The notes under the pieces: model-generated
Told to the model about the DNA's origin: nothing
Databases searched by the model: none
What the model saw: the letters and a program-made list of their open reading frames with translations, nothing else
Program-made: the position numbers and the translations under genes
Source: Chitinophagaceae bacterium
Lineage (GTDB): Bacteria > Bacteroidota > Bacteroidia > Chitinophagales > Chitinophagaceae
NCBI GenBank assembly: GCA_023251255.1
Contig: JAHEZD010000050.1
Span: 1 to 41,139 of the forward strand
DNA length: 41,139 nucleotides
Direction: 5' to 3'
Part shown: positions 11,853-30,400 of the stretch, in pieces
Layout of the letters: the number at the start of each line of letters is the position of its first letter
How positions within the stretch are numbered: position 1 is the first letter of the stretch

Positions 11853-11925
11853 GGTGCGGTAGCTCAGTTGGTAGAGCAAAGGACTGAAAATCCTTGTGTC
11901 GCCGGTTCAATCCCGGCCCACACCA
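11853..11925 (+). tRNA. tRNA-Phe (GAA)
   Basis: A complete 73-nt cloverleaf without an encoded CCA tail. The D-arm is AGCTCAGTTGGTAGAGC. The anticodon stem AAGGA/TCCTT encloses CTGAAAA with anticodon GAA. The T-arm is GCCGG-TTCAATC-CCGGC. The acceptor arms GGTGCGG and CCACACC pair except for a C5-A68 mismatch. A terminator follows within 8 bp. The last bases, with the terminator, recur near 26964. Confidence 0.93.
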
Positions 11926-11932
11926 CAATGTC

Positions 11933-11974
11933 AAAGCCCAGAATCAGCGTCAAGCTTGAGTTCTGGGCTTTTTT
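11933..11974 (+). terminator. Terminator of tRNA-Phe
   Basis: An 11-bp perfect stem, AAAGCCCAGAA (11933-11943) with TTCTGGGCTTT (11961-11971), is followed by further Ts. The loop is 17 nt. A related hairpin occurs at 26980-27022. Confidence 0.9.
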
Positions 11975-12099
11975 AATATTCAGAAACGGTGTCTCGTGAC
12001 CGCAATGATTTTATATGCTATTTACATCAAAGGTCTTCAAGCTAGGTTCCGTGTTTTTAAAGGAGCAATTTGTCTCGCAAGCTCGGATGTCTATAAACT

Positions 12100-12134
12100 A
12101 AGGAAGCACTTTGTATAATACAAAATGCTTCCTT
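12100..12134 (-). terminator. Hairpin terminator of the first T9SS/PID-CTERM operon
   Basis: A long stem, AAGGAAGCA (12100-12108) with TGCTTCCTT (12126-12134), continues after one C-A mismatch with TTTGTA-type pairing toward the tip. It lies 20 bp beyond the minus-strand stop of the 61-residue peptide gene. The following T run is weak. Confidence 0.65.
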
Positions 12135-12153
12135 GATTATTTTATTCCTGTTA

Positions 12154-12339
12154 TCAATTTCTTTTCTTCCTTAGCTTCTTTGCTCCATAACCAACACCAG
12201 CAGCAATGAGTAATGAGAGGCCTCCATCAAGTGGCACATCGTCAGCAAGACCTCCATCATTATCTATGGCTAATGCTTTTAGCGACATCATGCAAATAAA
12301 AACTGCTATCAGGCCGAGCATTTTATATCTCTGTTTCAT
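12154..12339 (-). CDS. Small PID-CTERM-type sorting-signal protein (copy 1)
   Basis: A 61-residue protein with a signal peptide (residues 1-24, ending SLKALA), a short acidic stretch (IDNDGGLADDV), the motif PLDGG at 36-40, a hydrophobic segment LSLLIAAGVGYGA (41-53) and a basic tail KKLRKKRN. The order motif, transmembrane segment, basic cluster matches C-terminal protein-sorting signals, and the P-x-DGG core matches the PID-CTERM family as I recall it. After both cleavages almost nothing would remain but a ~12-residue acidic peptide. It starts 26 bp after the giant T9SS gene on the same strand and should be co-transcribed. A homologous peptide follows the second T9SS gene at the same spacing. 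Function unknown; it may help sort, anchor or signal for its large partner. Confidence 0.75.
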   Translation of the reverse strand: MKQRYKMLGLIAVFICMMSLKALAIDNDGGLADDVPLDGGLSLLIAAGVGYGAKKLRKKRN

Positions 12340-12365
12340 GGGTTTCTGTTTTGATTGAAATAATA

Positions 12366-15300
12366 TTAGTTTTTTACAATTTTTATTACCTCTTTTTTGC
12401 CTGCTACATTGGTTACTTCAAGCATATAAATACCTGCTGCAAGCTTTGCTGTTGAAAGAGTATTGTTGGCCAACTGTGTAGTTTGCTGCACCAGTACCAC
12501 ACCCCTCAAATCCACAAGCTTTAGTGTATAGGTTTCCCCTAATGAAGGCAATTCAATATTCAGCACATCCTTAACAGGGTTTGGATAGGTTTTTATAGAG
12601 AATGGCAATAAGCTAACAATGGGTATTGGTTTGCTGAACACTACTGAAAACCTTTCTTTTCCCTGTGTTGCAGCAATGCTTGTTGTTACAGTGAAAGCAT
12701 ATTCCTTGTTGGTGTTCATCAACTGCACAGTACCTGTATAGTTATCTACCAAATAGATATTTGCATTGGTTTGCTGAACAAGATCATCAAAGTCATAGAA
12801 GCTTAATTTGAAACTACCATTGTTGTTGCTAACCACATCCAGCCGAACCGTATCATTGATAAAGTTGCTGTTCCTTGTATTGATGGCAAGTTCCCTTTCT
12901 GCTTTTATTGATTTGATGTTTTGTGTGCCACTGTTAATGGATACAATATCATCATTGTTCAATGCAGTTGAAGAAGCATTATTGGCAAACCTGATCATGA
13001 TTTCATCTGCCTGTGTACCATTTGCAAGTAAGTAGCCAATTCTTAAACGTTGAGTAATGGCAGCTTGCCTAAAATAACCATTGCTGTTAAGCCCTGATTT
13101 CATTGATTCAGCCCAATTCAATGTTACACCTGCACCTGCTATTTTGCCCTGTACAAAGAAAGCTTGCCCACTGGCAATGGTATTGCCTGTAGCATCATCC
13201 ATACCTGTATGGCCACCAGTAAAGGTGGAAACGCCATCCCAGAAAGCATAGTTCCCCACCGTATTGCCAGGGGCAAATGTGGCATAAGCATTAGTGATGC
13301 CACTTGCTCCATTGTTACCTGCCTGTAGGGCTGAAAAGCTGATGGCACTTGGGTAGGGATTACCTGTAAGCATATAATTGTCATTGGCAATGGAAGCATC
13401 TGCATTATTGAACAGGTCAATGGTGAAGCTGCCTGCATTTTTATTGGCCTGGCTCAGTACACCGGTGGTGCTTAATGTAACGGCATCGGTTGTGGTAACC
13501 GTTCCATCCAGCAATGAACAACCATTGCTCCTTGGCCCTCTGATATTCATTCTAAATCCTTTTCCCGGAGCTGTACTAACAGCATTGGTTCCTGTAATGG
13601 AAGTCCATCTGGTACCAACAGCTTTTGTTCCATCATAGACATACATGCTTGCTGCATTGCTAACAGTTGCATCAAAACCATTGGTATGTGCTGTTAGGGA
13701 AGGGCAAACTGTGCCACCTGTACCGGTACCCGTAATATGTACCTGCTGCTGCCATCCACTACTAATAGTTTGCGTAAATGGCGATGCCACCATGCTCCAT
13801 GTTCTGGAAGATTTCGCGGGTATGTATCTTTCAACTGTTACATTGCCACTAATGGTGCCACTGGGACCAACCCCAGCAGTTTTTGTGGCGGATGATTTTA
13901 ATACCAATCCATTATTGGTAGTTAATGCACCACTATTGAAATAAATATTGTTGGTTATATTAACTGTGCTTCCTGGCAGGATAATAGCTCCCAAAGAATT
14001 GTTCAGGACTAAGATTTCAATTGACATAGTTCCTGCTATAGTAATCGGGGTTGTTCCATTGTAGGGTTGTAACATACCTCCAGTATTTGTAGTAAGTGTT
14101 CCTGCACAACTAATACTTTTTGAGATAAACAGTGCAGTCAAAATATTAACGGACGCAGCTGATTGAATGCTCAGTGATCCAGCAATGCAATTCAATCCTA
14201 TTCCTATGCTAACAGGCATATTGGCCGCCCCGTTTGGAATAATGACTGCATCGTTGGTTGTAGGTACAGTGGCCGGTGTCCAATTGGATGCAGTATTCCA
14301 ATCATTACTGGTGGTGCCGTTCCAAACAATGCCGCCAGCAGTGCTAACAGTGGTTACATTTGAATTTGCACCCTGGCCCGTAAGGCTTGTTTTTTCATCC
14401 CTTATGCGGTAGTAGTAAGAAACACCTGCTGTTAACCCGGTAACACTTTGTGAAAGCCCCGGGTAAGCAATGGTGAATGGCGAACCGGTAATCACTGTTC
14501 CAAAATTAGGGTTGGTAGAAACATCCAATAAGTAATTATCAACTGTGCCAATGGCAGGTGCAGTCCAGTTAGCAGTGAAACTAGTGGTAAGCACACTGGT
14601 TGCAGCAGTAGTAGCAGAAACAGCCATCGCATAGCTTTCTACCCAATTGCTTGTACTGCCTGTTAGTGCAAAATTGTTCAACGTACCATTGTTGGTGTTC
14701 GCTGTTTGATCAATTAAAGTAATGAGCCCTGTATTGGTACCCGCTGCTGTGCCATTATCAAAATTATAATATGCTTGCAAACTAACTGGTACAGATGATG
14801 ATGTACTCACCATATCTACCTGGATATTGGCTGCTGAAAGATTGGTATTGTAAACCTTTACTTCATCTATATTTCCATTAAAAAGTTCTTTTGCTGTGGC
14901 CACATCATCCAAAAATCTTCCAATGCTAAATGTGGAGGCATTGTTGATGTTAGGATTCCCATTGAGCGTTTTAGCTGTTGCATCTGACACACCATCCACA
15001 TACAGCAACAATTGTGTAGCTGTTCTAACAGCAGCCACATGGTGCCATTTTCCATCATTGATGGTAGTGTTGCCAGTTATGAAAGTATAATTGGCTGCAC
15101 TGCTTTCATTTATTTCCAAAGAAGCTTTACCAGATGCTGTTGCAGTAAGCCTGAAGTAATTGCCATAAGTTGTAGCAGTTCTTTTTGATACGATACTCCC
15201 ATTGCCTGTAGATGTTGTCTTAATCCAGGCCTCCACTGTAAAATTGCTTGTACCAAAGTTTCCTAAAGTAGTATTAATGCCCACATAGTCATTGGCCCCA

Positions 15301-18300
15301 TCAAAGTTCAGGGCATTGCCTGGTGGTGTCATTGCTACGGCAGATGTTGTTACTGTTATGATAGATGAGCGTGCCCCCTGCCCGGTTATAACAGCCTTAT
15401 CTGCACGAATTCTGTAATAGTAAGTAGTGCTGGCAGATAACCCTGTAATTATCTGGCTTGTTCCGGGGGAAGCAATGGTGAATGGTGAGCCTGCTATTAC
15501 TGAGCCAAAACTTGCTGACGTACTTACATCTAAGAAGTAACTGTTTGCAGTGCCTATTGCTGGTGCTGTCCAGTTTGCTGTAAAGCTGGTGGCACTGATG
15601 GAAGAAGCTGTTGCAGCTGTAGGTACTACCATAGCATAACTTTCTACCCAGTTACTGCTGGTTCCTGATAATCCAAAACCTAGTAACGTGGCCGTGTTGG
15701 CATTGCTGGTCATATCAGGCATTGAAGTAATGCCTGCATTGTTTGCTGTGGAAGTACCAATATCGTAATTGAAATAGGCTTGCAAGCTTGCTGGCACCGA
15801 TGGTGAAGTGCTTACCATATCGGCCTGTATATTGGCTACGGAAAGATTGGTATTATATACCCTTGTTTCATCTAAACTTCCTGCAAACCAATTTATGCCC
15901 AGGTCATTGGTTCCCAGCCTTAAACTGGCAGCATTGTTTATATTGGGGTTTCCAGCTAATGTAACCGGTGTGGCATCGGCACTTCCATCAATATACAATG
16001 ATATTTGCGTACCATTTCTAACCACAGCAATATGGTGCCACCTGCCATCATTAATATTGGTATTGCCTGTAATAATCGTATAGTCAGTATTATTACTATG
16101 GTCAATTTCGAAAGCAGCTTTCCCGGTTGCCGATACAATTATATTAAAGAAATTACCGAATGAAGCTGAATTCCTTTTTGCCATAATAACACCTGCTGAG
16201 GCAGTTGTTCTAACCCATGTTTCCAATGTAAAGTTGCCCGTTCCAAAATTGCCTAAGGTTGAGTTGGTACCGACATTGTCGTTTACCCCATCAAAATTCA
16301 ATGCATTACCGGGAGGGGTATAGGCGATGACAGTATTTATGGCTACCGAATTTCCGCCCTGGCCTGTAACACTTGTTTTATCTGCACGAACCTGGTAATA
16401 ATAATATCCTGAAGTGAGGCCAGTAACTACTTGTGAAGTGCCATTTACCAACAGACCGCTATAGCCCGAAACAAAAGAAGTGAAACTTGGTGAGGTGGAT
16501 ACGTCCAACCTGTAACCATTATCCACTGTTCCTGTTATAGGTGCGGTCCAGTTTGCAGTGAAACCAGTTGTGGTGATATTGGTAGCAGCAGTTGCTGTTG
16601 GAACAACCATCGCATAACTTTCCACCCAGTTACTGGTAGCTCCTGCTGTCAGTCCAAAATTGTTGAGTGTGCCGTTAAGGGCATTGGAAGTCGCATCGTT
16701 CAAAGTTGTTATGCCCGTATTGGTGCCACCAGCCGTTCCATTGTCAAAACTATATGAAGCTATCAAACCAGTAGATGAGGGGCTGACCACATTGAACATG
16801 CCTGCCTGTATTTCTGCCTGCGTACGTACCACGTTCCAAATGCGGAACTCATCAAGGCTGCCTTTGAGATAGTACTGATTGGTGCTTCGTCTGCCAAGGT
16901 TGATGTCATTGGTATTATTTACCAGAACACTGCTGATGGCACCTGATGTAACCGTATAGGAAACCTCCACCCCATTGATATAAACTTTTGCGTACGTGTT
17001 TGATGGATCATAAACAAAAGCAACATGTGTCCATGCATTTGTTTTCAGTGCATTGGCAACATCAATAAAAACACCAGTACGAGGAATGAAACGCAGGCCG
17101 TTTGCCGTGCCGCCTGCCTGTATTTCCAGGGCTTCCGTTCCCTTGCTGCACAGGAACTGAACATCGGCAGATGTTGTAGGCGTCCAGTAAACCCATGTCT
17201 CCATGGTAATCTTCGCAACATTGAATGCAGCATTATGTACTATGGAAACGTAATCGTTGCTGCCATCAAAGTTCAGGCCATTGCCTGGGGGAGTTAATAC
17301 TTGTACCGCAGTGCTTGCTGTGATTGTTGAAGAATAGCCCCCTTGTCCTGTAACGCTTGTCTTGTCTGCTTTTACACGATAATAGTATGTTACAGAAGCA
17401 GTCAAGCCTGTAATAGCTTGTGAAGTGCCATTTACCAACAGACCGCTATAGCCCGAAACAAAAGAAGTGAAACTTGGTGAGGTGGATACGTCCAACCTGT
17501 AACCATTATCCACTGTTCCTGTTATAGGTGCGGTCCAGTTTGCAGTGAAACCAGTTGTGGTGATATTGGTAGCAGCAGTTGCTGTTGGAACAACCATCGC
17601 ATAACTTTCCACCCAGTTACTGGTAGCTCCTGCTGTCAGTCCAAAATTGTTGAGTGTGCCGTTAAGGGCATTGGAAGTCGCATCGTTCAAAGTTGTTATG
17701 CCCGTATTGGTGCCGCTTGCAATGCCATTATCAAAGCTATAGGACGAAACAAGGCCAGTAGCAGATGGGCTGACCACATTGAACATGCCTGCCTGTATTT
17801 CTGCCTGCGTACGTACCACGTTCCAAATGCGGAACTCATCAAGGCTGCCTTTGAGATAGTACTGATTGGTGCTTCGCCTGCCAAGGTTGATGTCATTGGT
17901 ATTATTTACCAGAACACTGCTGATGGCACCTGATGTAACCGTATAGGAAACCTCCACCCCATTGATATAAACTTTTGCGTACGTGTTTGATGGGTCATAA
18001 ACAAAAGCAATATGTGTCCATGCATTTGTTTTCAGTGCATTGGCAACATCAATAAAAACACCTGTACGCGGAATGAAACGCAGGCCGTTTGCCGTGCCGC
18101 CTGCCTGTATTTCCAGGGCTTCCGTTCCCTTGCTGCACAGGAACTGAACATCGGCAGGTGTTGTAGGCGTCCAGTAAACCCATGTCTCCATGGTAATCTT
18201 CGCAACATTGAATGCAGCATTATGTACTATGGAAACGTAATCGTTGCTGCCATCAAAGTTCAGGGCATTGCCTGGGGGAATGACAGCCCTTGTTACTGTG

Positions 18301-21300
18301 ATTGTATATATTTTAATGGTTGTGCCATCTTCTGCTGTAACTTTTATATCAATGCTATTGCTGCCAACATTCAAGGTCAATGAAGATGATGCTGCACCGC
18401 TTGTTACTGCTGAATAACCCCCACTGTTTACCTGCACTTGAATGCTTGCATTGGCGTCTGCCTTTGTTGGGGTTACCGTTACACTTGAAACTGCATTGGT
18501 CACATTTACAGCGTAAGTAGTTGTTGCTGCTGCAAAACTTGGTGACAATGTTCCTGCAGTGCTGGTAAGGGCTGATAAGTTTGCATTAGTTGAAGCCACA
18601 GCTCCTCTTGTTACAGTTATAGTGTAGGTTTTAATAGTGGTTCCATCTTCCGCTGTAACTTTTACGTCGACAGCATTACTGCCAACATTCAAGGCCAATG
18701 AAGATGATGCTGCACCACTAGTTACTGTTGCATAACCAGCACTGTTGACCTGCACTTGAATACTTGCGTTGGCATCAGCTTTTGTTGGTGTTACTGTTAC
18801 ACTGGAAACTGCATTGACAACGCTAGCTGTATAGGTAGTTGTGGCGGCTGCAAAGCTTGGTGATATTGCACCAGCTGTGGTAGTCAATGCAGAAAGGTCT
18901 GCATTGGTGGATACTGCAGCCCTTGTTACCGTTATGGTATATGTTTTAACGCTTAAGCCATCTTCCGCAGTAACTTCTACATTTATCGTATTGCCCCCTG
19001 TATTCAATAACAGTGCTGATGACGCATTCCCACTTGTTACCAATGCGTAGCCCGTACCATTTGACCTTACTCGTACGGTTGCAGTAGCATCTGCTAATGT
19101 TGGTGTAACTGTTACGCTTGTAGTGGCATTGCCCACACTGGCTGTATAGGTTATTGTATTTGCTGTAAAGCCTGGTGACAATGTTCCTGCAGAGATAGTA
19201 AGGGATGACAAGTCAGCATTGGTTGAAGGTGCAGCCCTTGTAACAGTTATGGTATATGTTTTAATGGTGCTGCCATCTTGTGCTGTAACTTTTACGTCAA
19301 TGGCATTACTGCCAATATTTAAGGCCAATGCAGACGATGCTGCTCCACTTGCCACTGTTGCATAACCACCACTGTTTACCTGTACTTGAATGCTTGCGTT
19401 GGCATCGGCTTTTGTAGGTGTTATTGTTACGCTGGAAATTGCATAGGCAACACTGGCTGTATAGGAAATTGTTGCTGCTGCAAAACTTGGTGACAATGCT
19501 CCCACTGTGCTGGTAAGGGCTGATAAGTTTGCATTGGTTGAAAGAGGTACTGCTCTTGTTACTGTTATAGAATATGTTTTAATGGTTGTTCCATCTTCCG
19601 CAGTAACCTTCACATCAATCGCATTGCTGCCAACATTTAGGGGCAATGAGGAAGATGCTGCACCACTTGTTACAGTAACATACCCTCCTGCATTTACTTG
19701 TACTTGAATACTTGCATTGGCATCAGCTTTTGTTGGGGTTACCGTTACACTGGAAACAGCATTGGTTACATTAACGGTGTAGGCAGTGGTGGCTGCTGCA
19801 AAGCTTGGTGACAATGTACCAGCTGTAGTAGTTAATGCAGATAGGTTTGCATTGGTGGAAAAAAGCGAAGAAATGTTACGTAATACCGAAACCGTACTGC
19901 TGCCATTGTTTGTTGTTAAATCAGGTTTGCCATCACCATCTATATCTCCAACCACTACTATACTTCCAGCAGTAAAATCTACTTTAGTAGCAAAGCTGAG
20001 CATTCCACTGCTACCAGTATTTTGGAATACAAAAATCGTATTAGTATAGTCACTACCTATCGTTAAATCGGGTTTACCGTCGCCATTGATATCACCAAAC
20101 GATATGATATCAGGAGAAGTGCCAGTGGCAAAATCCACCTTGGTAGCAAAGTTAACAGTGCCACTGGTTGACGTATTCCGGAATAGTGAAACCGTATTAC
20201 TGCTAGTATTGGTTACTGCCACATCCAATTTGCCATCACCATCCATATCACAAAGAGCCAACCCAGTACCTTCACCTCCTGAAAAGTCCACTTTGGTGGC
20301 AAAACCGATTGAGCCACTGGTTGATGTATTCCTCAACACTGATATGGTAAGGTCAAATTGATTACCAGTTACTATGTCTGGTTTACCATCGCCATCAATA
20401 TCACCAATGGCCATTGGTATAGGCCCTAAACTAGGGCTTATATCCACTTTAGTAGCAAAGTTGATAGTAGTACCACTGCCTATATTGCGAAGTATGTTAA
20501 CCTTATGATTGTTATAGCTGGTAGTTACTAAATCGGCCCTGCCATCCATATCAATATCGCTAATCAATACTGCCATACAAAAAGCACCAGTAGCAAAGTC
20601 TACTTTTGGTGCAAAACTAACAGACCCAATGCTACTGGTATTGCGAAACACCGAAACCGTATTGTTGCCATTATTTATTACTGCAATATCAGGTTTGCCA
20701 TCACCATCAATATCTCCAATAGCCGCAGCATAAGGATATGCATTTGTGGTAAAATCTACTTTAGCTGCAAAATTCACTGTGCCACTGTTGCCAGTGTTCA
20801 GCAATACTGAAATTAGATTGTTCGTATAATCGGGTACTACCACATCTGTTTTGCCGTCACCATCTAAATCTCCAATAGCCATTGTATAGGAGGATGCTGC
20901 ATTTGTAGTGAAATCAACTTTACCAGCCATATCAGCCAATGTTATACTTCCTTTGCTTGGCGTGTAAGTGGGGTTGAAAAATTGCTGACTAGCTGCTGTT
21001 AACGCAGTACCAGTGTTCAGCTCAGTAACTGCTGCATAAGTGGCCCCTGCTGGTACTGTTACTGTTAAACTGGTAGCTGTGGCTGCTGTAACTGCGGCTC
21101 TTGTGGCCCCAAAAAACACTACATTATTTGTGTTTGTTGTGTTGAACCCTGTTCCTGTTATGGTTACAGAAGAACCAACAATGCCACTGGTGGGGGAAAT
21201 GGAGGTTATGGAGATTTGTGCAAATGTCTGTGCACCAACAAGCCAAGAACAAAAGATGAGTGCTGCAATTTTCGTAAGCATACGGTTGGGTTTTGGTAAT

Positions 21301-21314
21301 GACAGAACCATCAT
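12366..21314 (-). CDS. Giant modular T9SS-secreted protein (TIG, FG-GAP, cadherin-like, LamG/FN3)
   Basis: A 2982-residue predicted surface or secreted protein. In order: signal peptide (ending AQTFAQ, ~33; an inner ATG at 21281 would also work); IPT/TIG domain (~36-115); seven FG-GAP/VCBS-like repeats with Ca-binding D-x-DGDGK-x-D loops (~140-480); five cadherin-like beta-sandwich repeats (~482-1010); four LamG/concanavalin-like domains starting near 1014, 1343, 1668 and 1998, each followed by an FN3 domain; a WNGTTSNDWNTASNW segment (~2326); a ~400-residue module starting RYIPAK (~2496); and a T9SS type A sorting domain with YPNPVKD (~2908-2982). Such proteins are exported through the outer membrane and act in adhesion or polymer binding. 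It lies downstream of a sensor kinase and LytTR regulator on the same strand, with a 256-bp gap. The C-terminal ~485 residues match those of the 1534-residue protein. Confidence 0.93.
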   Translation of the reverse strand: MMVLSLPKPNRMLTKIAALIFCSWLVGAQTFAQISITSISPTSGIVGSSVTITGTGFNTTNTNNVVFFGATRAAVTAATATSLTVTVPAGATYAAVTELNTGTALTAASQQFFNPTYTPSKGSITLADMAGKVDFTTNAASSYTMAIGDLDGDGKTDVVVPDYTNNLISVLLNTGNSGTVNFAAKVDFTTNAYPYAAAIGDIDGDGKPDIAVINNGNNTVSVFRNTSSIGSVSFAPKVDFATGAFCMAVLISDIDMDGRADLVTTSYNNHKVNILRNIGSGTTINFATKVDISPSLGPIPMAIGDIDGDGKPDIVTGNQFDLTISVLRNTSTSGSIGFATKVDFSGGEGTGLALCDMDGDGKLDVAVTNTSSNTVSLFRNTSTSGTVNFATKVDFATGTSPDIISFGDINGDGKPDLTIGSDYTNTIFVFQNTGSSGMLSFATKVDFTAGSIVVVGDIDGDGKPDLTTNNGSSTVSVLRNISSLFSTNANLSALTTTAGTLSPSFAAATTAYTVNVTNAVSSVTVTPTKADANASIQVQVNAGGYVTVTSGAASSSLPLNVGSNAIDVKVTAEDGTTIKTYSITVTRAVPLSTNANLSALTSTVGALSPSFAAATISYTASVAYAISSVTITPTKADANASIQVQVNSGGYATVASGAASSALALNIGSNAIDVKVTAQDGSTIKTYTITVTRAAPSTNADLSSLTISAGTLSPGFTANTITYTASVGNATTSVTVTPTLADATATVRVRSNGTGYALVTSGNASSALLLNTGGNTINVEVTAEDGLSVKTYTITVTRAAVSTNADLSALTTTAGAISPSFAAATTTYTASVVNAVSSVTVTPTKADANASIQVQVNSAGYATVTSGAASSSLALNVGSNAVDVKVTAEDGTTIKTYTITVTRGAVASTNANLSALTSTAGTLSPSFAAATTTYAVNVTNAVSSVTVTPTKADANASIQVQVNSGGYSAVTSGAASSSLTLNVGSNSIDIKVTAEDGTTIKIYTITVTRAVIPPGNALNFDGSNDYVSIVHNAAFNVAKITMETWVYWTPTTPADVQFLCSKGTEALEIQAGGTANGLRFIPRTGVFIDVANALKTNAWTHIAFVYDPSNTYAKVYINGVEVSYTVTSGAISSVLVNNTNDINLGRRSTNQYYLKGSLDEFRIWNVVRTQAEIQAGMFNVVSPSATGLVSSYSFDNGIASGTNTGITTLNDATSNALNGTLNNFGLTAGATSNWVESYAMVVPTATAATNITTTGFTANWTAPITGTVDNGYRLDVSTSPSFTSFVSGYSGLLVNGTSQAITGLTASVTYYYRVKADKTSVTGQGGYSSTITASTAVQVLTPPGNGLNFDGSNDYVSIVHNAAFNVAKITMETWVYWTPTTSADVQFLCSKGTEALEIQAGGTANGLRFIPRTGVFIDVANALKTNAWTHVAFVYDPSNTYAKVYINGVEVSYTVTSGAISSVLVNNTNDINLGRRSTNQYYLKGSLDEFRIWNVVRTQAEIQAGMFNVVSPSSTGLIASYSFDNGTAGGTNTGITTLNDATSNALNGTLNNFGLTAGATSNWVESYAMVVPTATAATNITTTGFTANWTAPITGTVDNGYRLDVSTSPSFTSFVSGYSGLLVNGTSQVVTGLTSGYYYYQVRADKTSVTGQGGNSVAINTVIAYTPPGNALNFDGVNDNVGTNSTLGNFGTGNFTLETWVRTTASAGVIMAKRNSASFGNFFNIIVSATGKAAFEIDHSNNTDYTIITGNTNINDGRWHHIAVVRNGTQISLYIDGSADATPVTLAGNPNINNAASLRLGTNDLGINWFAGSLDETRVYNTNLSVANIQADMVSTSPSVPASLQAYFNYDIGTSTANNAGITSMPDMTSNANTATLLGFGLSGTSSNWVESYAMVVPTAATASSISATSFTANWTAPAIGTANSYFLDVSTSASFGSVIAGSPFTIASPGTSQIITGLSASTTYYYRIRADKAVITGQGARSSIITVTTSAVAMTPPGNALNFDGANDYVGINTTLGNFGTSNFTVEAWIKTTSTGNGSIVSKRTATTYGNYFRLTATASGKASLEINESSAANYTFITGNTTINDGKWHHVAAVRTATQLLLYVDGVSDATAKTLNGNPNINNASTFSIGRFLDDVATAKELFNGNIDEVKVYNTNLSAANIQVDMVSTSSSVPVSLQAYYNFDNGTAAGTNTGLITLIDQTANTNNGTLNNFALTGSTSNWVESYAMAVSATTAATSVLTTSFTANWTAPAIGTVDNYLLDVSTNPNFGTVITGSPFTIAYPGLSQSVTGLTAGVSYYYRIRDEKTSLTGQGANSNVTTVSTAGGIVWNGTTSNDWNTASNWTPATVPTTNDAVIIPNGAANMPVSIGIGLNCIAGSLSIQSAASVNILTALFISKSISCAGTLTTNTGGMLQPYNGTTPITIAGTMSIEILVLNNSLGAIILPGSTVNITNNIYFNSGALTTNNGLVLKSSATKTAGVGPSGTISGNVTVERYIPAKSSRTWSMVASPFTQTISSGWQQQVHITGTGTGGTVCPSLTAHTNGFDATVSNAASMYVYDGTKAVGTRWTSITGTNAVSTAPGKGFRMNIRGPRSNGCSLLDGTVTTTDAVTLSTTGVLSQANKNAGSFTIDLFNNADASIANDNYMLTGNPYPSAISFSALQAGNNGASGITNAYATFAPGNTVGNYAFWDGVSTFTGGHTGMDDATGNTIASGQAFFVQGKIAGAGVTLNWAESMKSGLNSNGYFRQAAITQRLRIGYLLANGTQADEIMIRFANNASSTALNNDDIVSINSGTQNIKSIKAERELAINTRNSNFINDTVRLDVVSNNNGSFKLSFYDFDDLVQQTNANIYLVDNYTGTVQLMNTNKEYAFTVTTSIAATQGKERFSVVFSKPIPIVSLLPFSIKTYPNPVKDVLNIELPSLGETYTLKLVDLRGVVLVQQTTQLANNTLSTAKLAAGIYMLEVTNVAGKKEVIKIVKN
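16430..17292. repeat. LamG-FN3 coding repeat, copy A
   Basis: An 863-bp block inside the giant T9SS gene, nearly identical to 17417-18279 at an exact offset of 987 bp (329 codons). The main divergence is near 16717-16790, in the linker ending the LamG domain. Confidence 0.9.
17417..18279. repeat. LamG-FN3 coding repeat, copy B
   Basis: Partner of 16430-17292. Long stretches are identical, for example from the conserved TTGTGAAGTGCCATTTACCA onward and through the LamG start, which indicates recent duplication or gene conversion. Confidence 0.9.
18286..19872. repeat. Array of five ~315-bp cadherin-like domain repeats
   Basis: Five tandem coding repeats, each encoding STNA-L-LT...GTLSPSF...VTVTPT-ADA...ITVTRA. 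They are divergent at DNA level but retain shared blocks. They belong to the giant T9SS gene. Confidence 0.85.
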
Positions 21315-21570: not shown

Positions 21571-22284
21571 TTAGAGAAAGGTTTGCACCTGTACAAGCAA
21601 TGTATCACGAACGGGTTTCGTGATTGGAAATTCCAGTTGGTCCAGTAAGACCTTCTCGGTTTCTATCCTGGTTACATGTTTCAGGTTAATGATGAAGCTC
21701 CTGTTCAATTTGGTAAACATGCTATCGGGAAGCCTGTCCTGCATTTCCTGCAGGGTGGAACGCATCATTACTTTTTTGGCGTTGGCCAAATGGAAGGTTA
21801 CATAGTTTTGCTCACTACTCAGGTAAAGTATATCCTTGAAAGAAACTTTTTCAAAATCATATCCATCCTTCACTAAAATGGATTCCTGCTTTTTTGAAAA
21901 GGTAGTTGTGCTAGTGTAATTGCTTATAGCAATCTCAATGGCCGAATAAAGGTCTTCTTTAGTAAACGGTTTTACCAAATAAGCATTAGGCTTTACTTGC
22001 TTGGCCCTTTCCACTGTTATGTTATCGCTATTGGCCGTTAAGAAAATAATGGGTGCCTCATGGTTTTCCCTAATATAATGTGCCACATCAATACCATCTT
22101 TTTGTCCACCCAAATTAATATCCAGCAACATCAGATCGGGCTTTGAATGGTCAATCATACGCAAGGCCGTAGAATAATTATGTGCAGGGGGCAGCACTTG
22201 GTACCCCAGTTTTTTTAGGGTAAGGCAAATGGTATCTGCTATCACCATTTCATTTTCCACCACACCAATTTTCACATTGCTCAT
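21571..22284 (-). CDS. LytTR-family response regulator
   Basis: A 237-residue cytoplasmic response regulator. The receiver domain (residues 1-120) has acidic residues near the N-terminus (VVENE), the phospho-acceptor D55 in LMLLDINLGG and the conserved Lys in YLVKPF. The LytTR DNA-binding domain occupies ~135-237, with LYLSSEQNYVTFHL and LNRSFIINLKHV. The gene follows the sensor kinase gene on the same strand with a 118-bp gap, and the pair very likely forms a two-component system. Its nearest downstream gene is the giant T9SS protein, so that operon is a natural target, though no binding site could be identified. Confidence 0.92.
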   Translation of the reverse strand: MSNVKIGVVENEMVIADTICLTLKKLGYQVLPPAHNYSTALRMIDHSKPDLMLLDINLGGQKDGIDVAHYIRENHEAPIIFLTANSDNITVERAKQVKPNAYLVKPFTKEDLYSAIEIAISNYTSTTTFSKKQESILVKDGYDFEKVSFKDILYLSSEQNYVTFHLANAKKVMMRSTLQEMQDRLPDSMFTKLNRSFIINLKHVTRIETEKVLLDQLEFPITKPVRDTLLVQVQTFL

Positions 22285-22402
22285 AATATCATCTTTCTCT
22301 GTAAAAATTGAATATAGACAGAAACAGCCATTTGTTTATCCCTTAACGATGGATATACTTCAAAATGGGATGAAGCCAATGAAAGATGGGATAAACATGT
22401 CA

Positions 22403-25400
22403 TCAGCTTTCCAATTTACGTGTGTCACTGTCCTTGAATGCAATAGTAAAAACGCTTCCATTATCATAGCGATAAGCAGCTTGACCATATAGTTGTGAAG
22501 CAAGCCCTTTGATTAAGCGAAGCCCCAATGTGGACGCCTCTTCAAAGTCTATTCCTTGCTGAATCCCTGGACCGTCATCTGCAAACCTGAGCAAGTAGTT
22601 TCCATCGCCTTGATCTTTGAGGCTTATAGTTACCAGTCCTGTTTTGTTTTTCGATGTGGCATATTTGAATGCATTAGTCAATAGCTCATTGATGATTAAA
22701 CCCAATGGCACGGCTGTATCAATATCCAATATCAAATCAGGCATATCAATATCTATTTCAAGTTTTGCATTCAATTGTTCAAATACTTCACCCACCTGCA
22801 CGGTTAATTCCTTCACAAAGGAACTGAACTTGATATTGGCCAGGTTGTCGTTCTGGTAAAGGTTCTGGTGTATTAATGCTATGCTCTTTACCCTGCTCTG
22901 CCCTTCATTGAAAACTGCCTTGGATTCTTCTGCTTCAATTTCTTCCTTCTGCAAATCGAGCAGGCCAGAAATTATTTGCAGGTTGTTCTTTACACGGTGA
23001 TGGATTTCCTTAAGCAGCAGTTCCCGTTCACCTAATGATTTTTGCAGTTCGTTTGTTCTTGTGGTAACCGTTTCTTCCAATCGGTGCTTGTCCATTTGCA
23101 ATTTCTTGGTACGTAACTTAAACGCAAGAAAAACAATTGATGCCGCAATAGCCAAGAGCAATAACTGAAACCAAATTTTTCTATATAAGGGGGCCAACAC
23201 TTCAATAGGAATTAGCAGTTCACTGCTGCTCCATTGGCCATTCACATTCTGTCCTTTTATATGCAAAGTATATTTGCCATAGGGAAGACCGCTGATACGA
23301 ATACTGCTTTCTGTGGTATAGTTCCAGTCTTTGTCCTGAGCTTCTATTTTATAGGCATACTGGTTTGTTTTGTTTTCATAATCCAGTAAGCGGAACTCTA
23401 TATTGAAAAACTGGTCCCCAGGATTCAATACAATTTTTTGATGCTGCAACAATTCGGCAGTTAAATCAACCAACTTGTCTGCATTTGCAGAAAACTGCTG
23501 GAAGGATACAATCCTCAAAGCTGCTTTTGCATTGGAAGCATCATTGATAATTTCATTGGGGTAGAACGCATTTACACCATTCATGCCACCAAAAAAGAGC
23601 CTTCCATCACTTGCCTTGTATGAAGACATCCTGTTGAACTCATTATCTGAAAGCCCATCGCTTACAAAGAAACTGTTCATGGTTTCGTTCTGCATATTGA
23701 AGCAAACCAGACCATTCTCAGTACTTATCCAAAGATGGTTTTTGCCATCACTTTCCATTCTGTAAAGCACAGAAGAAGGCATGCCTTCTTTTATACTGAA
23801 ATGCGTGAAGTTGTTTAGCTTCCTGTTCCATTTGCACAGCCCATCACCACTTGTAGTAAGCCAGATGGTTCCTTGTTCATCTTCAAAAATATCTGTGAAG
23901 TTGCCCTTAGGCAATTGGTGCCCTGCTTCTTTATTTTCTGCATCAAAATAATCTATAATATCGCCTTTGCTGTTCAATAGCTGCAATCCACTTTCACCTA
24001 CAACCCAAATTGTTCCATCTTTCCTTTTCAGGAAACGGTAAGGCATTGAAATAACCTTATTCCTGAAATGCTTTTCTACAAGTTCATGGGTACGGAGATT
24101 ATAAGTATAAACATATTCCATTTTGCCAAGCAGCAACATACTGTCATTTAATGAAGCTGCACTAAGTATGGAACGGCCACTATCTGTATTTGCAAGCCGT
24201 TTGAATTTGTTTTCCTTAAACAAATATTCCTGCAGGGGATAATTGGTAGAGTACAATTTCCCCAAATGGCTAAGCAGGGCAAAGTTTACTCCAAATGTAT
24301 TGATGGCCTTTTGCCTGTCTTTTTGCTGTATAAAAAATTTGTCCCATACATTGGCATAAACGGTCCCTTCAGCATCCTGCCAAATACCCCTTACTTGGTT
24401 ATTTGCTTCCAATTGCTGCTGCTGCTTGGAGAAGTAATGAGTAAACCTGTTCTGCTTCACTTTAATTTTATAGGTACCTACTGATGTGCAAATCCATGTA
24501 TTGCCTAATTGATCAGCAAAAGCCTCATGCAGCATGAAATTGGTAAACTTTTTTAGTCGTGATGCCCCCACTATTTCTAGCAATGAATTACCTGTGTAAA
24601 GAAATATCCCTTTGTCAACTACATGAAATATGCAAGTTGTGTCGTTTGCCACAGGAAAGGGGGTTCCACCAAATCCTTCCAAGTCAGCAAGATGGGCATC
24701 TTTTGCATTGAAGCCATCGTTTAACTTGCCATTCTTGTCCATGGAAAAGAAGCCCAATCTTTTATAGTCATTACTATTGTAATGCACCATGAATTCACGA
24801 TGGCTATTGAGGTTTACGGGAAGGTAATTGAGGCTAACATCTGGTGAAAACTGGCTTATCTGGTTTCCATTGATGAAGTATTGGGTTTCATGACCACCAA
24901 ATCCCATGCATACAAAGTCCTTATAAAAAAAGCTGTATGGCCCAGTAGGGTCGCTGTATTTGTAGTAACCAGTATTCCATGGTTTCATTTCAAAACGCAA
25001 CTTGAACCCATCTTTTGCAGTGTACTGCCATAATTGATAGGGGCTTTTAGTCATGATGTTCACCCTATCTGTTCCATCGTTTGTTATCCAATAAACATTT
25101 GCTTCCTTAAAGGGCAGGTCTTTAAATGTTTGAGTTAATGAAGCAACCTTTAAGGTTTGTTGGTTAAGTATATCCACTTTGCCTATTGCCATTCTTTGAT
25201 ACCCAGGGTTGCCATATTGAATGAACAATTGGCTGTGCATATCAGTGGCCAATTTTACAATGTTATTGTCCTGCATTTGATAATCCTGTCTCGTAAACAA
25301 CTGCATTTTCTTACCATCGTAACGGTTTAGCCCATTCCTTGTTCCAAACCAGATAAACCCTTGACCATCCTGCAATCCGCAGAACACCTCATTTGCAGCA

Positions 25401-25567
25401 AGTCCATATTCAATGCCCAATAATTGATGTGAGATAGTGTATTTATCCTGCTTAGGTTGAGCAAGTACCCTTGATATACAACAACAACAAGTAATAGCCA
25501 ATGCGAAGCAATTGAACAGTCCTATTTTTTTCAAAGATGTATTGAGCATTTTCAAGGGAGTGGGCAA
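22403..25567 (-). CDS. Two-component regulator propeller / Y_Y_Y sensor histidine kinase
   Basis: A 1054-residue inner-membrane sensor. A signal peptide with an unusual Cys run (ending SRVLAQ, ~36) precedes Reg_prop-type beta-propeller repeats (~40-690; FIWFGTRNGLNRYDG and LWISTENGLV are typical). A Y_Y_Y domain follows (~705-785; GLPYGKYTLHIKG), then one transmembrane helix (~797-815), a HisKA_2-type dimerisation domain with EIHHRVKNNLQ (H856/H857) and an HATPase domain with INELLTNAFKYA and DDGPG. Unlike the large hybrid HTCS proteins, it ends after the ATPase and uses the adjacent LytTR protein as partner. In Bacteroidota, propeller sensors commonly detect glycan fragments in the periplasm; the ligand here is unknown. 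An internal ATG at 25549 (M7) is also a plausible start. Confidence 0.93.
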   Translation of the reverse strand: MPTPLKMLNTSLKKIGLFNCFALAITCCCCISRVLAQPKQDKYTISHQLLGIEYGLAANEVFCGLQDGQGFIWFGTRNGLNRYDGKKMQLFTRQDYQMQDNNIVKLATDMHSQLFIQYGNPGYQRMAIGKVDILNQQTLKVASLTQTFKDLPFKEANVYWITNDGTDRVNIMTKSPYQLWQYTAKDGFKLRFEMKPWNTGYYKYSDPTGPYSFFYKDFVCMGFGGHETQYFINGNQISQFSPDVSLNYLPVNLNSHREFMVHYNSNDYKRLGFFSMDKNGKLNDGFNAKDAHLADLEGFGGTPFPVANDTTCIFHVVDKGIFLYTGNSLLEIVGASRLKKFTNFMLHEAFADQLGNTWICTSVGTYKIKVKQNRFTHYFSKQQQQLEANNQVRGIWQDAEGTVYANVWDKFFIQQKDRQKAINTFGVNFALLSHLGKLYSTNYPLQEYLFKENKFKRLANTDSGRSILSAASLNDSMLLLGKMEYVYTYNLRTHELVEKHFRNKVISMPYRFLKRKDGTIWVVGESGLQLLNSKGDIIDYFDAENKEAGHQLPKGNFTDIFEDEQGTIWLTTSGDGLCKWNRKLNNFTHFSIKEGMPSSVLYRMESDGKNHLWISTENGLVCFNMQNETMNSFFVSDGLSDNEFNRMSSYKASDGRLFFGGMNGVNAFYPNEIINDASNAKAALRIVSFQQFSANADKLVDLTAELLQHQKIVLNPGDQFFNIEFRLLDYENKTNQYAYKIEAQDKDWNYTTESSIRISGLPYGKYTLHIKGQNVNGQWSSSELLIPIEVLAPLYRKIWFQLLLLAIAASIVFLAFKLRTKKLQMDKHRLEETVTTRTNELQKSLGERELLLKEIHHRVKNNLQIISGLLDLQKEEIEAEESKAVFNEGQSRVKSIALIHQNLYQNDNLANIKFSSFVKELTVQVGEVFEQLNAKLEIDIDMPDLILDIDTAVPLGLIINELLTNAFKYATSKNKTGLVTISLKDQGDGNYLLRFADDGPGIQQGIDFEEASTLGLRLIKGLASQLYGQAAYRYDNGSVFTIAFKDSDTRKLES

Positions 25568-25575
25568 ATTGAAAA

Positions 25576-25583
25576 CAAATGTA
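25576..25583 (-). promoter_or_regulatory. Candidate -7 promoter element of the sensor kinase
   Basis: On the minus strand this reads TACATTTG, an exact TAnnTTTG match, 8 bp before the ATG at 25567 and 26 bp before ATG 25549. Transcription from here would fit the inner start better. No clear -33 TTG is present. Confidence 0.35.
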
Positions 25584-25655
25584 AATGGTTTAAGAGGAAA
25601 CGCATTTTTTGTTGAAAAACAATAGCTCGATAAGAATATACGTATAAGCTAGCTG

Positions 25656-25990
25656 TTAGTCAAACGATATAACTATTCGAGTCGCTCCTCTGGTAGACCG
25701 CAAGATTTTTAAGACGCCTTCTAAGCTCATGTTCTCCCCTACTGCAAAATTTATATCCCAGAAACCGTCAAAGATGTTATTCTGAGGATTTATGTCACTA
25801 GTGCCACTGAGTGCACGCATGGCATATTTGAAATATTCTTACATTCCTTGCGAAATTTCTTTAGATTTTTTGTACGGGATTTATATTCTGCGATTTTGGA
25901 TAACCACATAAGGAAGGTCACTGTTCCAACAGACGTAATTTCCAGTGTGGCAGGAAATGGCACTGCAGCCTCAAATCGCCAGTTCGAAAA
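25656..25990 (-). pseudogene. Decayed gene of unknown family (possible frameshifted fragment)
   Basis: Two minus-strand open stretches adjoin in different frames. The upstream one includes VTFLMWLSKIAEYKSRTKNL and a basic KKFRKEC tail. The downstream one runs EYFKYAMRALSGTSDI to RSTRGATRIVISFD and a TAA at 25656-25658. Adding one base near 25843 would join them into a single frame of about 110 residues. From ATG 25820 alone a 54-residue ORF is possible. I do not recognise a family. The surroundings, next to the broken HTCS gene, suggest debris of a degraded gene. Confidence 0.35.
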
Positions 25991-25992
25991 GA

Positions 25993-26728
25993 TTAAGGTT
26001 TCTGGATTTTTAAATACTCCGAAGGTGACATTTGATACTTGTTCTTAAAACGGGTACTAAAATACTTTGTGCTACCGAAGCCCACTTCCAAAGCAATTGT
26101 GGCAATATTGTCTTCTCCTCCATCCAGCAGTTCTTTTGCACGTTTGAGCCTTGTATCACGAATGAACTCAACTGGTACAAGATTAGTTAGGCTCTTGAAT
26201 TTCTTGAAGAATGTTGTCCGCCCCTGTAATAGCAATTCAGCCACGTTATCAATATTGAAATCGGGATCCTGCATCCCCCTTTCCACAATTTCAATTACCT
26301 TATTTAAGAATACTTTATCCTTGGCTGTAATGACAATTTTTGTTTCTTCTCTTGCAGCATCTTTTTGATTTTCACTCGCAACTTGCTTTATCTCCTCAAT
26401 GCTTGCATTTGATGCTTTTTTCTTTGAAAGCAATGACTCAAAAAAAAATTTCCGTTGCTTCAGTTAAGTTATCTATTGAAGCAAGGATGAAGTTGGTATT
26501 AAATGGTTTAGTGATATAGTAATCTGCCCCCTAGTTCTGCCCTTCTATTTGGTTTTCAACAGATGATTTTGCGGTTAACAAGATGACAGGTATATGTCTA
26601 GTGGCCATATCATTTTTAAGTTTGTCCAGTAATTGTATCCCATCCATTTCGGGCACCGTTACATCACTCAATATTAGGTCGGGCATTAAGGCAATGGCTT
26701 TATCCCAACCTTGCCTCCTCAAAAAAAA
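25993..26728 (-). pseudogene. Remnant of hybrid two-component regulator (receiver + AraC HTH)
   Basis: This is the C-terminal part of an HTCS-type protein, broken in several places. The upstream piece (26531-26722) encodes a receiver core with MPDLILSDVTVPEMDGIQLL and PVILLTAKSS, ending at an in-frame TAG (26531-26533). Reading continues as GADYYITKPFNTNF, the receiver end. A run of nine A/T bases (26440-26448) then shifts frame by one into the AraC part (ORF 25993-26433), whose HTH contains ATIALEVGFGSTKYFSTRFK. The sensor domains, transmembrane helix and kinase are missing, and the receiver start is scrambled next to another A8 run (26721-26728). This is inactive as a full HTCS, although the AraC piece could in theory be made alone. 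Confidence 0.82.
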
Positions 26729-27189
26729 GCCTAGTAGTAATTACGAGCAAAATGATTAAACCCCTTGATTGAACCTGGAATGCAACTTATAAAGATTTAA
26801 GTTGTAATCAAAAGGCTCAAAAATCAGGTACCTTATTGGTAGCCCGCATTTCCTTCGAGCTACTGCAAGGCATTGGAACAACCTGTATTTTTAATATTGA
26901 TGCAAAGTCGGGGCAATATCGCTTCTGCTACTGAATAGTAGCTGATTGCAGTAAATTTCACCTCGGCCCACACCACTCTAAAAGCCCAGAACGTAAGCGT
27001 AACGTTGGTTCTGGACTTTTTTGTGCTTGGGAATGAGGGTTGGTAGTCCCAATTTGTTTATAACAGGAAGAGTTGCCTGTTAACGTTTGTAATTAGAAAT
27101 GCTATGATACTTATTTCGACATGATTATGAGTATGCACGTTGCATTTGTGCTGTTATAGGTTGGCAAAAAGAAGTTGTCCGAAAGGTTG
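26729..27189. other. Intergenic region with tRNA-Phe 3'-end copy
   Basis: 461 bp without a gene. The left part looks like further decayed sequence. The centre holds the tRNA-Phe tail and terminator copy (26964-27022). A 7-bp hairpin, TAACAGG/CCTGTTA (27061-27082), lies further right and may end the minus-strand PID-CTERM transcript, though it lacks a clear T tract. Confidence 0.55.
26964..27022 (+). repeat. Copy of tRNA-Phe 3' end plus terminator (possible att or duplication scar)
   Basis: CGGCCCACACCAC (26964-26976) is identical to 11914-11926, the 3' end of tRNA-Phe plus one base. A hairpin with the same stem follows (AAAGCCCAGAA..TTCTGGACTTT, one C-A mismatch), with a related 17-nt loop sharing AGCGT and TTG. 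The sequence just upstream has only faint tRNA resemblance (GTAGCT then TTGCAG near 26940; ATTTCACCTCGG for the T-arm), so any tRNA body is lost. Confidence 0.8.
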
Positions 27190-27384
27190 TCACTTCAAAA
27201 GCTCTTTTTTGTCTTTCAGTTTTCTTGCCCCATAGCCCACACCAGCAGCCACCAATAAGCTGAGGCCGCCATCCACCGGAACATCGCCACCAATGCCGCC
27301 CTCATCGTCTATGGCCATGGCCTTTAGGCTTATGGCAAACGTGAACACCAGGGTTAGGCTAAGTATCCTATATGCTTGTTTCAT
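27190..27384 (-). CDS. Small PID-CTERM-type sorting-signal protein (copy 2)
   Basis: A 64-residue homologue of the peptide at 12154-12339. It has a signal peptide (1-24, ending SLKAMA), the acidic IDDEGGIGGDV, motif PVDGG (36-40), hydrophobic LSLLVAAGVGYGA and basic tail RKLKDKKELLK. The open frame extends upstream to 27555, but that part overlaps the T9SS gene in another frame. The ATG at 27384 gives a proper signal peptide and aligns with copy 1 from the first residue. It starts 25 bp after the T9SS stop codon and is probably co-transcribed with it. Confidence 0.75.
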   Translation of the reverse strand: MKQAYRILSLTLVFTFAISLKAMAIDDEGGIGGDVPVDGGLSLLVAAGVGYGARKLKDKKELLK

Positions 27385-27409
27385 GATTCTTGCTTTGTTG
27401 GCTGAATGT

Positions 27410-30400
27410 TTATTGCTTGATGATTTTTTGAATGGACTTCCCTCCTTTTTGATTGATGGCTTCCAATAGGTAGGTTCCCGCTGACAGCCTTGACATGTTG
27501 ATGGTTTCCAGTGATGAGGATGCATCCTGCTGAACAAGTACTTTGCCCTGTGCATCAGACAGCTTCAGTAACCATGTGCCTATTGGCAACTGAACCTTCA
27601 GCTCGCCCAGCACTGGATTGGGATAGGCCCTCACCTCTACGTACATGGGTATGGATACCGGTACTGGTTTAATGAACACCACAAAAAGCCTTTGCTTGCC
27701 AAAACTATTGGCATCACCATTGTTTACAGTGAAGCTGTATTCTTGGGTATCATTCATCAACTGTGTAGTACCAGTGTACTTATCTATCAAGTAAATCTTT
27801 GCATTGTTATTGGTAACGAACTCATCAAAATCATAGAAGCTTAATTTGAAAGTACCATTGCTGGTACTGGCCACATTCAGTTGCACAGTATCCATGGTGA
27901 AGTGGATGCTCCTTGTATGGAACGCCAGCTCCTTTCCCGCCTTCAATGATTTAAGGTTCTGTGAACCCGTGCTGATGGAAACCACATCACCATCATTTAT
28001 TTCATTGCTGCTTGCCCTGTCCGTAAACTCCACCATAATTTCATCAGCCTTGCTCCCATTGGTCAGGAAGTAGCCAATCCTGAGCCTGTTTGGGTTGATG
28101 CCACTATTCCTGAAATAGCCGTTCTGTATGGAGGATGATTTCATGCTTTCGGCCCAGTTCAAAGTAATGTTGGCCCCTGCCACGCTGCCCTTTACAAAGA
28201 AGGCCTGCCCGTTTGCTAGGATATCACCAGATGCATCGCTTAATCCTGTGTTGCCGCCTGTCCATGTGCTGCCATTCCAAAAGGCATAGTTGCCGATGGT
28301 GTTGCCTGGTGCATAAATGGCATAGCTGTTATTGATGACGCTGCTGTTGGCTGTCCTCAATGCACTGAAGCTTATTGGGCTTGGGTAGGGGTTGCCAATT
28401 AATAAGTAATTATCGTTAGCTCCCGTTGCATCGCCATTGTTGCTTACTGTGGTGGAGAAACTGCCCATGTTCTTGTTGGCTGCACTCAACGCACCTGTTG
28501 AACTTAGTGTTGCAGCAGCAGTTGCAAGTACGGTACCATCCAGTAACGAACAGCCCATGCTCCTTGGGCCACGTATGTTCATCCTGTAGCCAGTACCCGG
28601 TGCCAAGCTAACAGCAGTAGTGCCTGTAACAGAAGTCCACCTGCTGCCAACAGCCTTTGTTCCATCATATACATACATGCTTGGTGCATTGGTTACCGTG
28701 GCATCAAAGCCATTGCTGTTGGGTGTCAATGAAGGGCAAACGGTTCCTCCCGTACCTGCACCTGTTATGTGTACCTGTTGCTGCCAGCTGCTGCTGATGG
28801 TCTGTGCAAATGGTGATGCTACCAAACTCCAGGTCCTGCTGCCCTTGGCAGGGATATAACGTTGCTGGCTAAGGTTGCCACTGATGGTACCAGTATTGAT
28901 GGTGCCATCAATGGCTGCAATGCTTGCAGTGCCAACTGCTGTGGATGCTAGTACCAGGTTGCCATTGGTAATGAGTGTACCGGATTGTAAGGTAAGCACA
29001 TCCGTTACTGTTTGCTTGCCGGTAGCAGCAATGGTTGCATTGTTGTTAATGGTAAGGCTGCTGATGCTGCCAATGCCTTCCAATGTTTGGCTGCCCATGG
29101 TTCCATTGAGAACAGTGGTGCCACTGCCAGAGATGGTTCCATTATTGCTTAGCAGGCTTCCAATGTTCAATATGCCTGTATTGTTGATGCCTGCATTGCT
29201 TTGTATAATCAGTGCACTGCTGTCCAAACCAAGGTTGCCAGTTGCACTTAGTGTATGGCCAGACTGTACGGTAAACCTTGCCAGGTTATTGAAGGCCGCA
29301 GGGGAAGCCCCCGTTCCATCCGTATTGGCCCTCCAATTGGTGAGTGTATTGGCCAAATTGTTGCCATTGCTGTAGTAAGCAGGTAGCTCATAGACTCCCA
29401 TATCGATCCTGCTTCCTTTTATACGGACGCTGTTCCATAGATCCACATTGCCTACGCCAGTCCCAGTAGTATCTGCCGTACCTGCATCAATGGCAGGGCT
29501 ATTGGGCAAGAGGCGGTAATCATTATTGGCGGGATTTACAAATAAGGGGTTTGTATTTATTAGGTCGCCCGTGCCGTTAATGTCTGCTCCTGATTGATTG
29601 ATATAGCTATGGTCCCCCGGCCCTACTATGCTATTGTTCAATACAACAGCCCCCCCAGCAGCATAAAGGCTTGCACTGGAGCTTGGGTCATTCCCTGCAC
29701 TATTATTGTACAGGATACTGTTATAAATAGCAGCATTGACATCATAAAAAGAAGCTACGGCACCTGTATATCCTGCTTTGTTGTTGGCAAATACACAATT
29801 GCTTATTTTGATGGAGGAGCTGTATCCACTATATATGGCCCCACCTTCACCGCCACCATCATAATAAGTGGGGTCATAAGGGTCAGGTAAACTGGCAGCA
29901 TTGCCTATGAACAGGCTGTTGCTCACCACTGGGTAAGAGCTGTTTTCACTGGAGATACCACCACCATACCCTCCAAAACTATAGCCGCTATTATATGGAT
30001 ACACTGTTTCTACAGCTGTATTGCCCCAAAAAATACATTGGGAAATAATAGGTGATGATTGGTTATTGTAGATGGCCCCACCACCATTATCTGATGCGGT
30101 GAAATTGTTCAGGAAACTACAGTGGCTGATGGTGGGAGATGCACGGATATTGGCTATGCCAGCAGAAACGCCAATTGATGAGCCATTTGATTCTGCGTAT
30201 CCATCACGAAAGGTAAAACCATCCAATACATCATCTGGTGTAAGCAGGTTGTTATCATTACGGATAATGCCGGCACCGTTTCCTGTCAAGATGGTGCCGC
30301 CTTCCGTACTGCCAGCAATGGATGGCAGCACCCGTTGTGAAAACAATCCACCACCACTGGGGAAGCCCCCAAACATTTTTACGCCTTTGGCCATGACAAA

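Follow-up and report, generated by a model that had tools for sequence, protein, structure and literature searches.

Two paralogous surface-protein cassettes behind a tRNA-Phe gene and its 13-nt stub in a Chitinophagaceae bacterium: probably a small genomic island and not a single ancient duplication

How did two related surface-protein cassettes come to lie 15 kb apart on one contig, each behind the 3' end of a tRNA-Phe gene? The question is raised by contig JAHEZD010000050.1 (C138) of a Chitinophagaceae bacterium (assembly GCA_023251255.1; 6.1 Mb in 188 contigs), whose whole length of 41,139 bp is the window analysed here. In both cassettes, called A and B, the tRNA end is followed by a terminator, a small PID-CTERM gene and a large gene for a surface protein with a type IX secretion system (T9SS) sorting tail. 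An initial annotation had read this as a collinear duplication of about 15.04 kb, produced either by an ancient segmental duplication or by repeated integration at tRNA-Phe. Its four landmarks do recur in identical order and at near-equal offsets, namely 15,050 for the tRNA 3' ends, 15,036 for the PID-CTERM stops (12154 and 27190), 15,044 for the T9SS gene stops (12366 and 27410) and about 15,035 for the start of the shared T9SS module. Our analysis suggests that the arrangement, which is uncommon yet of an already known kind, probably represents a small genomic island and not a single ancient duplication.

The proposed 15-kb extent was not borne out by self-comparison. Homology is confined to a block of about 1.95 kb (11914-13862 against 26964-28900), which contains the tRNA-Phe 3' end, the terminator, the PID-CTERM gene and a C-terminal module of about 496 residues of the T9SS protein. 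Self-blastn aligned the tRNA end plus terminator at 51 of 63 positions (81%, E 1e-8), so that this segment is itself similar and not the coding modules alone, as well as the PID-CTERM DNA (12160-12282 against 27203-27327; 72%, E 5e-14) and the T9SS module DNA (12622-13806 against 27660-28838; 69%, E 2e-120); at the protein level the module extends to 13862 and 28900, at 62-63%. The alignment score of the tRNA end plus terminator was 54, compared with 12.7±2.2 for 500 mononucleotide shuffles. The 300 bp upstream of the repeated 13-mer gave no similarity between A and B (17 against 17.9±2.4 for shuffles), and the spacer between terminator and PID-CTERM gene could not be aligned (16 against 17.0±2.2). 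Since self-blastn at E 1e-3 listed no match between 13862-26963 and 28900-41139, the repeated block ends with the module and 15.04 kb is merely the spacing. Thus, of the features expected from a tandem segmental duplication, the same order and orientation and the absence from outgroups were found, and homology across the repeat unit was not, as it covers about 1.95 of 15.04 kb.

Two of the four landmarks collapse into one when the rest of the genome is considered. The PID-CTERM proteins A (61 aa; 12154..12339, minus strand) and B (64 aa; 27190..27384, minus strand) match NF046080 with 48.6 and 46.4 bits (curated cut-off 26). The T9SS proteins A (T9A, 2982 aa; 12366..21314, minus strand, shared module 12366-13862) and B (T9B, 1534 aa; 27410..32014, minus strand, shared module 27410-28900) end in the type A sorting domain TIGR04183 (43.1 and 41.4 bits, curated cut-off 23). 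As first described, they are paralogues with different N-terminal domains: protein A carries TIG, FG-GAP, cadherin-like, LamG and fn3 domains before the tail, whereas the N-terminal part of protein B is unlike that of A and has choice-of-anchor-Q domains, the tail being the sole Pfam family matched at E 0.001. This genome holds 24 PID-CTERM and 123 T9SS-tail matches, and 22 of the former directly follow a type A sorting tail encoded on their own strand; in these 22 pairs 118-324 bp separate the two domain matches. The T9SS-PID order is therefore a standing gene pair throughout the genome, and only the tRNA end and the terminator are specific to the locus.

Several further observations concern this gene pair. 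In other species a PID motif stood downstream in 13 of 82 module loci, duplicates included (82 of 96 loci were used, 14 being too short, and the same genomes are present twice). PID-CTERM is a possible dedicated partner of T9SS cargo; we found no paper that names it. A third PID-CTERM match in the window (34181-34240, minus strand, 27.8 bits) has no adjoining T9SS tail and lies upstream of a TPR gene (32250-34025). The approximately 420 residues preceding the tail, within 12366-13862 and 27410-28900, are recurrent in the genome, as 18 of 19 matches, lying in 17 open frames, span more than 400 query residues. Inside T9A, two adjacent repeats of about 950 bp (16348-17292 and 17332-18279) share 94% identity, much closer than A and B, which suggests a recent internal duplication or conversion.

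The locus-specific part begins with an intact tRNA-Phe gene (GAA; 11853..11926, plus strand), recognised by ARAGORN, which forms the left boundary of segment A, the stretch leading up to the second cassette. Its last 13 nt (11914..11926, plus strand; attL-like) recur exactly as a stub at 26964..26976 (plus strand; attR-like), and the 13-mer is present at just these two sites in the 6.1-Mb genome, with none for a reversed-pattern control. Hairpins begin 7 nt (A) and 5 nt (B) past the 13-mer. Terminator A (11933..11971), between tRNA-Phe on the plus strand and the PID/T9SS pair on the minus strand, is bidirectional and folds with -21.6 (plus) and -21.2 (minus) kcal/mol (z -5.4 and -6.4); terminator B (26981..27019) folds with -16.4 (plus, z -2.3) and -17.3 (minus, z -3.3) kcal/mol. 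The hairpin pattern has only these two copies in the genome. Counted by eye, the stems agree at 21 of 22 positions, and the loop has diverged. In terminator B the plus strand has a C.A mismatch and the minus strand is fully paired with one G.U, as if it now served only the T9SS-PID transcript. Conservation of the stem can be explained by its use as a terminator, an excuse that the stub does not have. The combination of tRNA end and stem occurs in 2 of 394 family genomes, this one and a single match in G342. We also considered whether the terminator is a conserved feature of tRNA-Phe in the family and rejected it, as the downstream hairpins mostly differ among congeners, two of which (G005 and G006) have one in common. 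Separately, the acceptor stem of the intact gene (GGTGCGG / CCACACC) shows a C-A mismatch at its fifth pair, which had raised the suspicion that the 3' end was swapped upon integration; the same mismatch is found in 20 of 21 family genomes examined by eye (the exception is G022), and the idea was rejected.

The two sides of the junction and the two modules appear to differ in age. In a tree of 35 modules (from 54 loci, after removal of duplicate rows and of those with fewer than 330 aligned residues, which left none of the 18 loci from the genome-contig search), A and B are sisters (97/90), with the closest third copy, C10:41017 (59%), next (100/99). Among the genomes in the tree, no other contributes to the clade of these three, which stands apart from the congeners; a search at E<=1e-40 gave no module in G002, G004, G005 or G006. 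The sister position of A and B and their common terminator stem support a shared ancestry of the block from tRNA end to T9SS module. The C10 copy has a PID gene behind it; neither a tRNA end nor such a terminator was found there. Silent sites between A and B are saturated (proportion of synonymous differences 0.746; identity at 142 fourfold sites 0.39), to a degree like that of asnS fourfold sites between this genome and congeners (0.38 with G002, 0.34 with G006). The chance that a neutral stub of this age stays intact at 13 of 13 positions is 0.39^13, about 5e-6, and even 0.69^13 gives 0.008; the former figure is post hoc, as a decayed stub would have gone unnoticed and the run may be the remnant of a longer one. 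On the other side of the junction lies the 3' relic of a hybrid two-component sensor (25993..26712, minus strand), comprising the receiver and AraC end and truncated at its 5' end, as recognised by comparison with a paralogue. It shares 78% nucleotide identity with C32:44902-45620, where the open frame continues upstream, and differs from it by 0.138, 0.100 and 0.395 at codon positions 1, 2 and 3, with five one-base gaps. Because these differences fall mainly at third positions, the sensor was under protein-level selection until recently and its decay is recent. A stub of this kind escapes decay only as part of a working tRNA, so that its intactness between paralogues with saturated silent sites places the join in the recent past. 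Taken together, saturated silent sites and an unalignable spacer beside an intact 13-mer and a recently decayed relic look like old modules meeting at a young junction.

Relatives show that tRNA-Phe is an integration hotspot in the family. On the upstream side, G002, G005 and G006 have kept the order asnS-DUF3050-tRNA-Phe, and the genes behind the tRNA differ among the three. In G002, of the same genus, the locus holds an element resembling an integrative and conjugative element (ICE), with integrases, a TraG-like gene and mobilisation genes, named from their translations, and 44 nt of the tRNA 3' end are repeated 19.3 kb further on. We surveyed 93 stretches downstream of tRNA-Phe, a non-random sample in which 13 were partly chosen for a visible fragment, 80 were taken in list order and several were ended by contig ends; a tRNA-Phe match was obtained in 113 of 117 genomes, only part of which are in the survey. 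In 12 of the 93, 13 nt or more of the tRNA 3' end recur without a mismatch: second tRNAs in three (L216, L243, L276), 43-49 nt in four (L222, L236, L269, L282), 28 nt in one (L050) and 13-17 nt in four (L211, L231, L253, L258). Integrase matches were likewise found in 12 of the 93, two of which (L033 and L040) are the sources of two queries, and L211 gave an additional match, seen only with the integrase of G119. In that genome (L258) the same 13 tRNA-Phe positions are repeated 16.6 kb away, beside a tyrosine-recombinase-like gene, which makes it the one integrase-linked precedent for a 13-nt repeat. L211, from G133, combines a 17-nt repeat with a partial match to the G119 integrase, and in G129 (L222) the tRNA 3' end, terminator and downstream DNA are repeated (211 bp at 97.6%) around 7.1 kb. 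Two of the short repeats (L231, L253) are unlike the rest, being short local copies with, by eye, a palindrome in place of the T-loop. The G119 integrase has one relative among viral contigs. A few bases just left of the core that appear by eye to be common to G000 and G119 are too few to count as evidence. We found no paper on ICEs at tRNA-Phe in Bacteroidetes; a 2002 study by Williams reportedly deals with the sublocations of integration sites in tRNA genes. As a separate observation made by eye, a short second copy of the tRNA-Phe 3' part lies 171-403 bp downstream in L231 (G132), L253 (G122) and L050 (G012), its T-arm or variable region interrupted by a palindromic or GC-rich insert.

The explanation that we tentatively favour is that segment A was inserted late, behind tRNA-Phe. 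Cassette B would have been resident behind an intact tRNA-Phe gene, and segment A (11927-26963), comprising terminator A, PID A, T9A, a LytTR regulator, a histidine kinase and the truncated sensor, would have entered late at the tRNA 3' end through the 13-nt att-like core, ahead of B. The insert would have restored the tRNA, leaving the 13-nt stub in front of B, and the outcome would be an islet without an integrase, whose recombinase acted in trans or has since been lost. We infer the insertion event, its site-specificity and the role of A as the newcomer. In favour of insertion, the stub starts at the very tRNA position where the integrase-linked repeat in G119 starts. Repeated integration at tRNA-Phe, as first proposed, gains plausibility from the integrases and 3'-end repeats of relatives and none from the window, which yielded no recombinase. 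A number of results weigh against an insertion. Four integrase queries gave a best match in the window of only E 0.57, with no recombinase or relic of one, and the rest of the genome yielded no more than a remote relative of the integrase of G119 (30%, residues 110-409). GC content at third codon positions is 0.35-0.37 in T9A and 0.43-0.53 in T9B, both within the 0.26-0.60 of 26 other open reading frames of this genome, so that composition does not mark A as foreign. Most tRNA-Phe fragments in relatives measure 43-50 nt, not 13. The rarity of the combined tRNA-end and stem motif in the family means that a donor would have to be a near relative, and none was found. Relatives with a single cassette behind tRNA-Phe, to which the initial annotation had looked, were not found either: none of the 93 stretches contains a T9SS module with a PID gene (tblastn at E 1e-4, queried with the modules and PID proteins of both cassettes, by which a diverged PID may escape), and 5 match the T9SS tail alone. 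Among 98 loci (the two of this genome plus 96 that hold relatives of the module, many of these with flanks of only 1.5 kb), tRNA-Phe was found only at the locus described here.

The closest rival to a late insertion is an old tandem duplication of a complete tRNA-Phe gene with its cassette, after which both tRNA-Phe genes would have been functional for long, until a recent deletion cut away the 5' parts of the second tRNA copy and of the sensor gene. We hold it to be possible, if rather doubtful. A single deletion accounts for both truncations, which face each other across about 250 bp, and the sister relationship of A and B, with the dispersed C10 copy next and all three in one genome, suits duplication within the lineage. 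Family genomes with two full-length tRNA-Phe matches do exist (G054, G114, G127 and G136 of 117); against this, 8 of 9 congeners gave a near-full match, one each, and G004 (80% complete) gave none. The deletion also requires a filler of unassigned origin at the junction, about 250 bp between relic and stub (26713..26963), for which there was no DNA match elsewhere in this genome and no integrase similarity or relic, and the stub would have to start by chance where the G119 repeat does. Both accounts place a working tRNA-Phe before each cassette until recently; they differ on whether A came from outside. A simple ancient segmental duplication with its breakpoint inside the tRNA, leaving an equally old stub kept by constraint or luck, is disfavoured and appears unlikely. 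In its favour are the matching order, orientation and spacing of the block and a terminator stem that has been preserved although its loop diverged, in line with selection on the terminator; what does not agree is the common extent of just 1.95 of 15.04 kb, the recent decay of the flanking sensor and the stub, which as neutral DNA of that age should have decayed, even if the figure of 5e-6 is somewhat overstated by the choice of a run for being intact. A further reading, which we consider very improbable, sees the locus as a landing pad, in which tRNA-Phe 3' end, bidirectional terminator, PID-CTERM and T9SS sorting module are fixed and giant surface-protein genes with different N-terminal ends are stacked or exchanged by a short-core recombinase acting in trans; the locus would then be a diversification site for surface proteins without its own integrase. 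Least credible is that PID-T9SS pairs, common as they are in this genome, came independently behind two tRNA-Phe ends, because A and B are sisters with a common terminator stem and spacing and the third copy, C10, has neither the tRNA end nor that terminator.

A late insertion would place the locus among known kinds of element. Cis-mobilizable elements (CIMEs), in the passages of PMC5704250 that define them, have lost integration and transfer genes and kept attL and attR, and arise by decay and tandem accretion (PMC5704250). Judged by its sequence, segment A resembles a CIME or tRNA islet: attL- and attR-like direct repeats of the 3' end of its target gene bound it, and the matches listed for its main open reading frames include no recombinase or transfer family. 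As to a descent from an ICE or an integrative and mobilizable element, no mobile-element gene was found in the segment, and in relatives the same tRNA harbours ICE-like elements. It differs in that the repeat is only 13 nt, that this genome shows no related element of either type at the site and that homologous cargo lies on either side. The Dehalococcoides ssrA islands with rdhA genes, as described in part of PMC3146451, also consist of tandem segments with related cargo separated by short (20-bp) repeats of an RNA-gene 3' end, 15 of them without an integration module; that system comprises many islands, and its serine recombinase module is known, whereas ours is a single pair for which we found no recombinase. 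In Riemerella, the section on the 10K genomic island reports a Bacteroidota island downstream of an Arg-tRNA with its own integrase, excision and a 53-bp direct repeat (PMC6764341), which by our own reading of its letters includes a terminator-like inverted repeat; here the repeat is 13 nt and no integrase was found. The partial tRNA copy at the far end of the segment also resembles the tRNA fragments left by island integration that PMC9897764 illustrates with PYG1, whose repeat is 44 bp.

The rest of segment A consists of a LytTR response regulator (21571..22284, minus strand) and a Reg_prop/Y_Y_Y/HisKA_2 histidine kinase (22403..25567, minus strand), both recognised by domain matches; the kinase had no match at E<=1e-100 in 58 other genomes searched. 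The C10 paralogue (C10:41017-~65000; also L202 3201-8222), within an open frame reported as 8000 aa, is likewise accompanied on its 5' side by genes for a LytTR regulator and a large sensor kinase, but divergently oriented, and the LytTR proteins of the two loci are just 23% identical. At the left end of the window, 533-3271 and 3357-6929 encode tandem WD40-propeller proteins with a caspase-like (Peptidase_C14) domain, whose 3' ends share 82% DNA identity over 788 columns.

This case shows how the age of a repeated cargo can be separated from the age of the junction that joins its copies. If the insertion is true, islets anchored at tRNA genes would, in this family, carry large T9SS surface proteins together with their local regulators.

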